Origin: Bacillota bacterium
GTDB lineage: Bacteria; Bacillota; Sulfobacillia; JAJZIM01
NCBI GenBank assembly: GCA_021810565.1
Contig: JAJZIM010000016.1
Location: 1 to 54,117 of the forward strand
DNA: 54,117 nucleotides
Reading direction: 5' to 3'
In this document: positions 44,562 to 51,229 of the stretch, piece after piece
Layout of the letters: the number at the start of each line of letters is the position of its first letter
Position numbering within the stretch: the stretch's first letter is position 1
The notes under the pieces: model-generated
What the model was told of the DNA's origin: nothing
Database searches by the model: none
What the model saw: only the letters and a program-made list of their open reading frames with translations
Made by a program: the position numbers and the translations under genes

Positions 44562-44609
44562 CAATTTTTGTTCACCTGACATTCCTCCTGTCCGCGCAAG
44601 AGTGGATCG

Positions 44610-44770
44610 CCTCGCGCACGGGCAGGTATCCTGGCTCAGGTTCCTCGCCGGTACCGGCCTTCCCAGGCGGCTGCCCGGTGGCATAATCGGCCCGGCTCCC
44701 CATCACAGTTGCGGGACAGCGGCAGCTTTGCACTGCCTTCCCTGACTCCGTTCGCTATGCAATTGCCCTT
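44610..44770 (-). ncRNA. Cobalamin riboswitch
   Basis: Minus-strand landmarks of the B12 aptamer in order: AGTCAGGGAAGGCAGTG, GCTGCCGCTGTCCCGCAACTGTGA, GGGGAGCC, CCACCGGGCAGCC and the B12 box GAGCCAGGATACCTGCCC. These are the conserved core of the adenosylcobalamin riboswitch. It lies in the leader of the NiCoT transporter and should repress it when B12 is plentiful. Confidence 0.93.
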
Positions 44771-46262: not shown

Positions 46263-47497
46263 AAGCCCAGGCGGTGGAAGAAGCCCGGGTCCTCGCCGCC
46301 CAGGTGCCAAAGGCCCGCCCCGGCCAGACCAGCTTGTCGGAACAGGTGCAGCTTGAAGGTCACGGACCAGCTGTCCTCGAACCACACTTGGTGCAGGTTG
46401 CCCCTCGGGCCGGTGTAGGAGAAGTGGGGTTCCTGGGCGGTGGAGCTCCAGGCGATGGGTACGCCCTCCCTTTGGGCCAAGGCGATGGCCTGGGCGGCCG
46501 ACAGGCTGCGGGTGGCGCCGCCGCTGGACCAGTCGTAGCCGTAGTCGGCGATCCCCAAGATCAGCTTGTTCGCCGGCATTCGGGTGAGGGCGTAGCCCAC
46601 CACTTGGCGCACCCAGGCCAGGGAGGCCACGGGCCCGGGGGCGGTGCCGGGGGAGTGCTGGTCGTAGGCCATGATCACCACGCCGTCCGAGGCCTGGGCC
46701 AGGGCGGCGTAGTCGTAGGCGGCGCCGGGGGGATCGAGGTACCAGTGGTCGGAAGTCTTGGCCCCTACGGCCACGGTGGTCGAAAGGCCCCGGGCGGCCA
46801 AGAGCCGGTGCAGCTGCTGCACGAAGGCGGTGAGATCGGCCCGGTCGGCGGGGCCCAGACCCTCGAAATCCACGTTGACCCCGTCCAGGCCCAGGGACTG
46901 CACCGCGCCCAGGAGGTTGGCGACGGCCCGCTGCCGGTCGGCGGGGTCGCGCAGGAACCGGTCGGTGCCGCCCTGGTTGGTCACCATGGCCAGCACTCGC
47001 ACGTGCTCTCGATGGGCCTGGGCCACCAGGGCGGCCTCCCCCTGGCCGCGGTTGACCAGGGTGCCGTCGGGGGCTAACGAGAACCAGTAGGGGGAGACCT
47101 GCTGCAACTGGGCGGCGTGGCGGGCGAAGGAGGCGGCCGAGCCGGAGCCCGCCCACCCGGCGTAGTAGCCCAGGAGGAGGCGCTGCGGGGGGGCCGGGGC
47201 GGGATCCAGGGCGCGGCGCAGGGCGGCGCTGGTCTGCGGCCCGTCCACGCCGTCCACGGCCAGGCCCTGGGCGCTTTGGAAACGCGCCAGGGCGGCCAGG
47301 GTGTCGGGACCGAACACGCCGTCGGCGGGACCGGGGGCGTAGCCCAGGGCGGAAAGGTCCCGTTGCAAGGCGGTGACGGCGGTACCCCGGTCGCCGTAGG
47401 ACAAGAGCGGGGCGGCCAGGACCGGCACGGACACGGCCAACAGACCGGCCAGGGCCAGCGCCGGCCCGCTCAGGAACCGAGAAAACAAGAGGATCAC
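46259..47497 (-). CDS. Secreted GH18 glycosidase with peptidoglycan-binding domain (YaaH/SleL-like)
   Basis: A 412-residue exported hydrolase. A signal peptide covers about 1-30. A PG_binding_1 domain covers about 32-100 (GDRGTAVTALQRDLSALGY, DGVFGPDTLAALARFQ). A GH18 barrel covers about 110-412, with LGYYAGW, the catalytic DGVNVDFE (final Glu as acid) and VVIMAYDQH. This layout matches spore-cortex N-acetylglucosaminidases of the YaaH/SleL group. GTG 47497 follows GGGAAGGA closely; TTG 47488 is an alternative start. Suggests endospore formation or wall turnover. Confidence 0.9.
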   Translation of the reverse strand: MILLFSRFLSGPALALAGLLAVSVPVLAAPLLSYGDRGTAVTALQRDLSALGYAPGPADGVFGPDTLAALARFQSAQGLAVDGVDGPQTSAALRRALDPAPAPPQRLLLGYYAGWAGSGSAASFARHAAQLQQVSPYWFSLAPDGTLVNRGQGEAALVAQAHREHVRVLAMVTNQGGTDRFLRDPADRQRAVANLLGAVQSLGLDGVNVDFEGLGPADRADLTAFVQQLHRLLAARGLSTTVAVGAKTSDHWYLDPPGAAYDYAALAQASDGVVIMAYDQHSPGTAPGPVASLAWVRQVVGYALTRMPANKLILGIADYGYDWSSGGATRSLSAAQAIALAQREGVPIAWSSTAQEPHFSYTGPRGNLHQVWFEDSWSVTFKLHLFRQAGLAGAGLWHLGGEDPGFFHRLGF

Positions 47498-47791
47498 ACT
47501 CCTTCCCTGATCGCCTCCGGAGTTAGTTGACGGGTTCGGGCCCGGGAAGCGGCCCTGCCACCGGATGGTGGGTTCACCCCAGTTTTTGTCCTCCGTACCC
47601 AAAAAGGGATTCAGCGAGGCAAGTTTAGCATGGCCAGGGCGATCAGGTCACCCCTGGAGAGAAAGGCTCAGTCAGGACGAGCCATCCTCAGGCGCGACGG
47701 GTGCCAGCTGCCGGTTCGGGGCGCAGGATGCGGCGCACTTCGGGAGGAAGAAGGGGCGATCCCAAGCCCTGGCAGGTTGGCGGGCATAAGG
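47498..47791. other. Intergenic interval, no gene seen
   Basis: Between the GH18 start and the terminator of the PfpI gene I see only scattered short open frames without ribosome sites or known motifs. A minus-strand GH18 promoter could not be identified. Confidence 0.5.
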
Positions 47792-48426: not shown

Positions 48427-48843
48427 GATGTCCCCTCCCCTTTCTGGTGTGCGCGGCACGACCGGTTCCCAGAGTGCTTCGCCGCCCCGGGTGCCGGGAC
48501 CTGCCGCCAATGGCTGGGTGCGGACACTCACGATACCGGCCGCACGGGCAAGGGCCTCTCGGGTCTGCTCCGGGGAGAACCGCTCCGCCGGGATGGCAGC
48601 CGGCCAAGCGTCCGGATGGCGGGCGGTGCGCTGGGGGAACGGCAGGTCGCGAAGCGACGGGATGATGGCTGCCAGGTCGATGCCGCTGTTGAAGGTGTCG
48701 GTGCCCTGGGCCACGGAGCCAAACAGGACTGCATCGGTGGTGCCCCACTCAGCCAGCTCCGCTGCCAGTCGCTCGGCCTCCGCGTGGTGCCGGGCGCGGA
48801 TCACGACCAACTTCCGGTGCTGCGCGACCGCGAGGGCTGCCAA
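48427..48843 (-). pseudogene. Degraded MNT-like nucleotidyltransferase fragment
   Basis: In frame with and directly upstream of the PfpI gene. It encodes [24 protein letters not shown] followed by [10 protein letters not shown], the minimal nucleotidyltransferase motif G-S-x10-D-x-D, but the first Asp is Gly (SGIDL for SDIDL), so catalysis should be lost. MNT domains usually pair with HEPN toxins, and none is seen here. The following 60 residues match nothing. Low certainty whether any protein is made. Confidence 0.5.
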
Positions 48844-49063: not shown

Positions 49064-49092
49064 TTGACAACACGAAGGGCACCTGCTATCAT
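49064..49092 (+). promoter_or_regulatory. Strong promoter of the small RNA at 49.1 kb
   Basis: Consensus -35 TTGACA (49064-49069), a 17-base spacer, -10 TATCAT (49087-49092). The predicted start (about 49099) coincides with the first base pairs of a structured RNA. Confidence 0.75.
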
Positions 49093-49097
49093 AAACA

Positions 49098-49173
49098 CGA
49101 CCGAGAGGGCAACGCGCGACTGCCCGTGTCCAGTTAACGCAGTTAACGGGGCCTCGGTCGCGCTTTATTTTTT
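49098..49173 (+). ncRNA. Putative small structured RNA with intrinsic terminator
   Basis: The outer stem CGACCGAG/CTCGGTCG (49098-49105 and 49153-49160) closes a three-way junction. It holds hairpin GGGCA/TGCCC (49107-49111 and 49121-49125) and hairpin GTTAAC-GCA-GTTAAC (49133-49147). The outer stem is followed by CGCTTTATTTTTTG, a good U-tract. The transcript would be about 75 nt. It could be an independent RNA or an attenuator for the DUF3800 gene that starts 33 bases after the U-tract. I know no family match. Confidence 0.6.
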
Positions 49174-49205: not shown

Positions 49206-49951
49206 ATGCATCTTTTGTATTTGGATGAATCAGGTCAGCATAAAGGTCGTTATTTTGTTCTGGGTGGCCTTGCTGTACACGAGAAGCAGACGTATTTTCT
49301 AGGAAAGGAGTTAGATGACATACAAGCAGAAACATTTCCAGATATGAATGAGGCAATTCCCTTTCATGCTGCCGAAATCCGGGCAGGCTCGAAGGAGCCA
49401 TGGAAAGCTTTACCTCAGAAAAAACGGTGGGCGATACTAGATAGGTTGTCGGATGTCATTGCAGGCGGAAGAAACACGCTTTTTGCTGAAGTGATAGAAC
49501 GCGGATCCCTACCGGAAAAGAAAATGAATATTTGTATGCATTTGAAGAAATCATAAACAGGTTCGACATATACCTGAAAAGACTAGGGAAAGAAGCTGGA
49601 TATTTTGAAAAGGGCATGATAATTATTGCTCACTCCGAATTTCGGCAAAGCATAGAGGTATTAGCCAAACAAATCGAAAAATAAGGAACAAGGTGGGGTG
49701 ACTTACGTAATCTTGTAGATATACCGTTCTTTACTCTTTCAAAAAACTCCCGGTTACTGCAAGCGGCCGATTTTATTGCTAATACTGTATATGGTCGCTA
49801 TGAAAACGGTCAAGCTAGACATTTTGATAAAATAATCTGCAAGTTTGACAACGATGATGGCATTATTCACGGACTTTATCATCGATCTATTAACAATTAC
49901 CACAATTGCATGTGCCCGGCCTGCCTTTCTCGGAGGCAAAATAGGGCTTAG
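49206..49951 (+). pseudogene. DUF3800-domain protein, broken by frameshift and stop
   Basis: Begins MHLLYLDESGQHKGRYFVLGG, the N-terminal signature of DUF3800 (LDESG), a predicted RNase H-like nuclease family of mobile and defence loci. A frameshift near 49520 truncates it. The other frame continues NEYLYAFEEIINRFDIYLKRL to a TAA (about 49682), and then SRLLQAADFIANTVYGRYE and IIHGLYH follow to the end. The base composition is clearly AT-richer than the surroundings, so it was acquired. An IS630-type element sits at its very 3' end. Confidence 0.7.
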
Positions 49952-51229
49952 TGGGCAGGAACAGAATTACGTTGATATATTTTCGGGTCCGTTCAGGCTA
50001 CGGCTCGGGCGCTGCTCTTGGGATCGGAAATCCTGGCGAGTAACTTGGTCAGATCATCGCGGGTGAACCGCCAATCAAATGGTTTGGCAATGGCTTGATA
50101 TCTTTCCTGGAAGCTGAGCAGCCGATCTTCCACCTCGGCAAGGGATGTGAAATCATCTGGAGTCAGCACTTTGCGCTGGACAATGGAGAAATAGATTTCG
50201 ATCTGGTTGAGCCAACTGGCGTGAACGGGAAGATGTACCGGTACAATCGTTGGCCACCTTGCCTGAAGTCGTTAGACAGAGTGGCTCCCCCTATGGGATG
50301 ATCCGTTGTCCATGATCCAAAACACTCTATCGGCCGAGACATATGGCTCGAGGCTCATAACCTGATCCACTAACCGTTCAAAAGCCGCTATCCCGGTCGT
50401 GAGGTCACAACGCCCGAAAATCCTGGCCCGATGTACATCCCATGCCGCAAGATATGCCCATGCCCCATCCCGCTTGTATTCGTGCTCAACCCGCATTACT
50501 TCCCCAGCCTGCGGGGGAAGGGTGGGATGCCGACGATGTCGAGCCTGGATGCTGGTTTTCTCATCAGTCGACAACAGATATTCCCTTGGCCCCAAAGGCA
50601 CTCCCTCCCAGGTGGCTTCATACAGGTCCAAAACCGGCCCCGCCTTCTCGGTGAAGTTCGGAGCCCGGGGAAAGATCCAACTGCGGTGGCGCCAAGGCCG
50701 AATGGCGTCCTCCGCCAGCCAACGCCACAGAGTCGCCCCGCTGATCTTGGCTACGATACCCCGATGGATGATCTCCCTCCGCAGCTCCTCCACGGAGAAG
50801 GGGGAAAGGGGCACGCCCACCCTGCTCGGCAATTCACAGGCCAGAGCCTTTATCTCCACCACCACCGCTGGGGGAAAAAGAACCGGGCCGCCCGCCGCGA
50901 GGCAGATCTTGAAGACCTGCCAACCCCAACTCATAAAACCGCTTGCGCCACTTGCTAACCACCTGCCGTGGCAGATCCAGCCGGGTCGCGATCTCTTCAT
51001 TGCTTCGCCCTTCAGCCGCCTGGAGGATAATCTTGGCCCGGATCACCTCGCAATACGGTGACTTATATTTATGGGTACCGGCTTCGAGGACGGCCCGTTG
51101 CTCAGGCGAAAGGTCGATACGGAAAGGGCTTTCTCTCGGCATCACAGCCTTACCTCCGAGACCATCATACCTCAGTGCGGCCCAAAAGGCAAGTCAGCAT
51201 ACGTCATCGTATTTATGATTTTGACCACT
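49951..51229. mobile_element. IS630-type insertion sequence
   Basis: Imperfect terminal inverted repeats of about 30 bases: left GTGGGCAGGAACAGAATTAC (from 49951) against the reverse complement of the right end GTGGTCAAAATCATAAATAC (to 51229), each flanked by TA, as expected for IS630/Tc1 elements. It carries one disrupted transposase gene on the minus strand. Exact ends are approximate. Confidence 0.6.
49993..51142 (-). pseudogene. IS630-family transposase, frameshift plus stop
   Basis: The N-terminal HTH part (LSPEQRAVLEAGTHKYKSPY, EGRSNEEIATRLDLPRQVVSKWRKRF) is in one frame. After TTTTTCCCCC near 50875 the DDE part continues in another frame with STDEKTSIQARHR and WIMDNGSSHRG. Then a TAA (about 50271) interrupts before WPTIVPVHLPVHASWLNQIE, which holds the last catalytic Glu. 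The first shift might be programmed, as some IS630 elements use frameshifting, but the TAA makes this copy inactive. ATG 51142 has GGAGGTAAG upstream. Confidence 0.78.

Follow-up and report, generated by a model that had tools for sequence, protein, structure and literature searches.

A predicted small-RNA gene beside a decaying DUF3800 gene in a Bacillota bacterium: a divergent DUF3800-associated three-way-junction RNA

Locus organization and predicted RNA

The window, a 54,117-nt stretch of contig JAJZIM010000016.1 of a Bacillota bacterium (GCA_021810565.1), carries a compact element at positions 49064 to 49173. On the forward strand, a sigma-70-type promoter with an extended −10 region (49064-49092) matches the consensus at 11 of 12 positions, with TTGACA at 49064-49069, a 17-nt spacer, TATCAT at 49087-49092 and a TG one base 5′ of the −10 box. 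The −10 box ends 5 nt 5′ of the first stem of a predicted small RNA of about 75 nt; the predicted transcript, delimited by the promoter position and a T-tract, runs from 49097 to 49173 (77 nt, forward strand).

In the predicted fold, a three-way-junction core occupies 49098-49160 (forward strand). Stem P1 (8 bp; 49098-49105/49153-49160) closes two hairpins, P2 (5 bp with a 9-nt loop; 49107-49111/49121-49125) and P3 (10 pairs; 49128-49131 and 49133-49138 with 49142-49147 and 49149-49152). P1 and P2 are joined by a single A (J12, 49106) and P2 and P3 by GU (J23, 49126-49127), while P3 abuts P1 with no intervening base (J31, 0 nt). P3 contains a GTTAAC/GTTAAC helix, the two units pairing mutually because GTTAAC is palindromic, identical to its reverse complement. 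Following P1 and three further bases (CGC), the T-tract TTTATTTTTT (49164-49173) completes a predicted intrinsic terminator of which P1 is the stem.

The stretch 49097-49173 folded at −30.5 kcal/mol with a minimum free energy structure frequency of 0.54. Equal or greater stability was obtained in 55 of 2000 dinucleotide shuffles, a modest value (z = −1.9). Any three-way junction with a P1 of at least 7 bp arose in 40 of 2000 such shuffles, and the exact junction with 1, 2 and 0 unpaired bases in none. These results bear out the initial annotation in its description of an 8-bp stem enclosing two hairpins, one of them built from GTTAAC, and followed by a T-tract. The minus strand was considered as an alternative RNA and rejected: its fold is more stable, but an A-tract takes the place of the terminator and the orientation conserved among homologues contradicts it.

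The adjoining DUF3800 gene

Downstream of the T-tract, a broken DUF3800 gene was located at 49206-49951 on the forward strand, its reading frame starting 32 nt 3′ of the RNA/T-tract site. PF12686 was matched above gathering score in both halves. A frameshift near 49520 and an in-frame TAA at 49682-49684 interrupt the gene, which is otherwise full length; when conceptually read through, it aligned end to end with a Chloroflexi protein (L033, the closest protein relative) at 48% identity. The gene is a pseudogene in this genome, and the RNA is therefore likely to be either a relic or a partner left orphaned.

G+C content drops from about 70% to about 40% at the RNA/DUF3800 unit, and an IS630-family transposase is encoded downstream on the minus strand (50272-51145) in two frames, an HTH part and a DDE part, which probably reflect a frameshift or programmed frameshifting. 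In 398 other genomes from the phylum, neither this type of DUF3800 gene nor its RNA could be found, the latter with the model R1 (see below). Because of these three features the unit looks acquired. Thus the initial annotation, which had placed the element at the edge of an acquired DUF3800 gene, was right about the acquisition and the leader position and had missed that the gene is a pseudogene.

A second, distant DUF3800 gene of the same genome (contig C106, L123, 1300-2352) lies 3′ of an RNA methyltransferase-like gene; the three-way-junction RNA was not found there. Other features of the region, all on the minus strand, are a weak NTP_transf_2 (nucleotidyltransferase) remnant at 48435-48843, in frame ahead of a DJ-1/PfpI gene, a c-di-AMP (ydaO/yuaA) riboswitch at 47497-47626, preceding a peptidoglycan-binding/glycosidase-like reading frame, and a cobalamin riboswitch at 44605-44765, both riboswitches scoring far over the Rfam gathering score.

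Homologous RNAs and covariance models

DUF3800 relatives were collected from plasmids, phages, viral contigs and one genome per species. The same RNA was present in the same place in most of 80 DUF3800 loci of public genomes, and in phage and plasmid loci besides; the loci came from Chloroflexota, Cyanobacteria, Bacteroidota, Verrucomicrobiota, Acidobacteriota, Proteobacteria, Bathyarchaeia and phages. The Rfam family RF02915 (DUF3800-VI) was matched at gathering score directly 5′ of DUF3800 in 6 of the first 10 loci and in 7 of a further 20. An eighth match among the further 20, in a Gemmatimonadota metagenome-assembled genome (L038), lies 545 nt before the DUF3800 start; the RNA hit there, at 904-956, is a strong one (43.6 bits). 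This locus and its near-duplicate L100 are the only clear exceptions to the close spacing of RNA and gene.

Since an energy-only structure scan yielded wrong junctions in many loci, covariance models were used instead. R1 was built from a structural alignment of 22 relatives and R2, a wider model, from 26 sequences, the window copy being left out of both. Across 90 DUF3800 loci, R1 gave 78 matches, each of them on the strand of the gene and 5′ of it, with E-values down to 1e-13; R2 added four (L024, L031, L037 and L040), each at the expected place. Among whole genomes or records with a match, the RNA occurred once, at the DUF3800 locus, in 21 of 21. The initial annotation had proposed a covariance search, especially next to DUF3800 genes, and would have been contradicted by homologues without compensatory changes in the stems; the homologues recovered do show such changes. 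In that of R1, 96% of cells were paired and changes on both sides were seen in 16 of 19 pairs, which none of 500 shuffles matched, and sliding the pairing partners out of register abolished the pairing; over both alignments, the values were 96-98% and 16-17 of 19 pairs.

The RNA is also retained beside broken or truncated DUF3800 frames (L043, L058, L102, L103, L105 and L108), which fits a costly protein being lost first and could also be assembly error. On small cryptic plasmids of Enterobacteriaceae (3.6-5 kb; L024 and L031), DUF3800 is accompanied by a variant RNA that escapes detection by Rfam. A blastn search with the 117 nt against 100 relatives returned chance matches only, and blastn in plasmids returned no match. 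PADLOC models matched the relatives weakly. Over the 398 phylum genomes, R1 produced two matches with equal scores (L113 and L114); L113 was considered as a homologue and read as chance, as it sits within a coding region.

Assignment of the window RNA

Both models were run over the whole 54-kb window with filters off, the E-values being rough by the tool's own statement. The best site was 49098-49160 in each case, at 19.6 bits and E = 0.006 for R1 (runner-up 12.7 bits) and at 22.0 bits and E = 0.0044 for R2 (runner-up 14.4 bits). Held-out relatives ahead of DUF3800 scored alike under R2 (L031, 23.8; L037, 22.4; L024, 20.6). The R2 score of the window copy (22 bits, E 0.004 over 54 kb) is modest and becomes convincing only in combination with its position before DUF3800. 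Compared with the RNA of L033, every change in P1 and P2 is a double one, five in all with none on one side only, and the junction A and GU are identical.

We delineate here a group of DUF3800-linked three-way-junction RNAs, which takes in the RF02915 matches and has a conserved junction of A, GY and 0 nt (J12, J23 and J31). The window RNA has a J12 of 1 nt, a J23 of 2 nt (GU, within the group's pattern of G followed by U or C), no J31 and a P1 of 8 bp, lies directly 5′ of a DUF3800 gene on the same strand, and is recovered by models built without it. With DUF3800-VI it has in common the three-way junction with these stem and junction lengths, the place and strand relative to DUF3800, and a T-tract right after P1, as in the RF02915 matches L034, L066, L072 and L103. 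It differs in its score, which is under the Rfam gathering threshold, in the broken host gene, in its P2 of 5 bp with a 9-nt loop and in the 10 pairs of P3 with the GTTAAC/GTTAAC helix. An Rfam search for the window RNA, at gathering score and at E ≤ 10, gave nothing relevant, and RF02915 (gathering threshold 35 bits) has no match anywhere in the window, the RNA included, even at E ≤ 10; no formal Rfam membership is therefore claimed.

That hairpins, promoter and T-tract have come together by chance, bearing no relation to the DUF3800 RNAs, is most improbable: an Rfam score below noise and the fold z-score would suit such an origin, but the exact junction is absent from the shuffles, the top model match of 54 kb falls on the predicted site, and the comparison with L033 gives double changes without single ones. 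The case is strong in its comparative evidence and modest in fold stability on its own. We thus read the 110 bases, from their sequence, as a real, self-contained small-RNA gene made up of a promoter, a three-armed RNA and a stop signal, with predicted transcription; the free-standing RNA of about 75 nt postulated by the initial annotation agrees with this anatomy and with the homologues. Its statement that no matching family was known has to be revised. By sequence comparison, the window RNA is classed with the DUF3800-associated three-way-junction RNAs as a divergent copy, a new member of a kind already described, with RF02915 as the closest Rfam family. Weinberg et al. 2017 is the reference given in the FLSHclust paper (PMC10910872) for the association of such RNAs with DUF3800.

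Layout of the loci and promoter register

Layouts were tabulated for 55 loci, and in each the best promoter within 70 nt was counted if 9 or more of its 12 positions matched. Of the 29 loci with such a promoter, 28 have a −10 box that stops 5-9 nt short of P1, a register held across phyla and shared by the window, where the near-consensus promoter had already been described as starting transcription at P1. A score of at least 9 in this register was found in 51% of loci and in 0.3% of shuffles. Two layouts were distinguished. In the Proteobacteria, the junction is followed by a separate terminator hairpin; in the other layout (the window, L033, L034, L041, L048, L056, L066, L072, L103 and others), the T-tract comes straight after the junction, and it directly follows P1 in about 19 of the 55 loci.

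The distance from RNA end to start codon is 7-77 nt in 54 of 55 loci (108 nt in L039). In the direct-T-tract layout, the gap leaves no room for a second promoter, and DUF3800 would therefore have to be expressed by read-through past the terminator. Given the 7-77 nt spacing, the RNA would be a terminated transcript and at the same time the leader of the gene: the initial annotation had offered a small RNA or an attenuator, of which both parts would hold, with no need to choose between them. Anatomy, homology, covariation and the register of the promoter are read from the sequences, and so are the absence of space for a second promoter and the arrangement of promoter, RNA, terminator and gene as one putative transcription unit.

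The position in the 5′ leader, the use of P1 as terminator stem in about one third of tabulated loci and the Rfam type of DUF3800-VI (Cis-reg) would all accord with an autoregulatory leader only, in which termination shifts when the junction is bound or cut, be it by the DUF3800 protein or by some other factor, the short RNA itself being functionless. We consider this rather unlikely: a conserved alternative pairing partner that would dissolve P1 was not seen, and the Proteobacteria have a separate terminator hairpin 3′ of the junction, so that the junction is conserved beyond the needs of termination. Still less can be said for a metabolite riboswitch or attenuator controlling DUF3800. A structured leader with a terminator ahead of a gene has that appearance, but the genes are mobile, belong to a single protein family and are spread over phages, plasmids, bacteria and archaea, sequence conservation is slight beyond the junction, and an alternative expression platform is lacking, which makes this explanation very unlikely.

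DUF3800 protein

A structure model of the intact relative L033 (pLDDT 94.7) had RNase HII (1eke) as its best fold in the PDB (E = 3e-4, probability 1.00), with moderate TM-scores of about 0.4; a PDB search by sequence gave nothing useful. According to the model, DUF3800 has an RNase HII-like fold, and an RNase H fold was also predicted for it in PMC10910872 and PMC12669027. DUF3800 proteins also adjoin CRISPR effectors, for example Cas12a2 (PMC10910872). The modelled RNase H-type fold and this neighbourhood might suggest that the RNA is a cofactor or guide directing the protein to nucleic acid targets, but the predicted direct-T-tract transcript runs from P1 to the U-tract without a free single strand to act as guide, and its loops measure 3-10 nt. 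A guide function is less likely for that reason, and we regard it as improbable.

Discussion

The reading we prefer, at what we judge an even balance of probability, is that of a divergent DUF3800-VI-like RNA, made as a terminated transcript, with an RNase HII-like protein produced by read-through and likely restrained by the RNA. In short, a single promoter would initiate transcription at the first pair of P1, and P1 with the U-tract would halt most polymerases, leaving a structured RNA, about 75 nt long, to accumulate. A minority of polymerases, depending on the termination efficiency, would read through the terminator and yield the DUF3800 mRNA. The RNA would most likely bind its own DUF3800 protein, presumed to be toxic, and hold it in check as an RNA antitoxin or inhibitor, the terminator keeping RNA in excess over protein, in the manner of AbiF/RCd22 and of type III toxin-antitoxin loci.

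The antitoxin role is suggested by analogy with these systems. In AbiF/RCd22 of Clostridioides difficile (PMC12373285), promoter, ncRNA, terminator and gene follow in this order, the gene is reached by read-through, and the RNA neutralises the protein by binding. A Sigma-A type promoter, a short structured ncRNA, a Rho-independent terminator, read-through into the protein gene and a mobile setting are shared, as predicted from sequence, with the DUF3800 loci. The protein is of the Abi_2/AbiF type, whereas DUF3800 is RNase-H-like; RCd22 has two repeated motifs, with no three-way junction reported, whereas the DUF3800 RNA is a three-way junction; and the function of AbiF/RCd22 was demonstrated (PMC12373285), the DUF3800 locus being known from sequence. 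Type III toxin-antitoxin loci (ToxIN, CptIN and TenpIN) likewise have an RNA gene, a terminator and a nuclease gene transcribed as a single unit (PMC8860590), and the DUF3800 loci have, as far as their sequences tell, the terminator between RNA and gene and the shared promoter of type III. Their antitoxins are tandem repeat arrays (PMC8860590), however, whereas the DUF3800 RNA is present as one copy per locus, and the type III toxin fold is unrelated to that of DUF3800.

More tentatively, and with some doubt, DUF3800 and the three-way-junction RNA may together constitute an RNA-antitoxin module, as yet uncharacterised, whose effector is an RNase HII-like nuclease and in which the closing stem of the folded RNA doubles as the terminator that meters this nuclease; the module would extend across bacteria, archaea and phages. 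An explanation of DUF3800 RNA function was not found in the literature searched. A promoter in conserved register, a gap that cannot hold a second one and an RNase HII-like fold would turn the association into a testable circuit of a terminated RNA and a read-through nuclease. The window copy extends the DUF3800 RNAs to a further lineage and to a structural extreme, and it offers a natural case in which the RNA has been retained while the protein gene is decaying.
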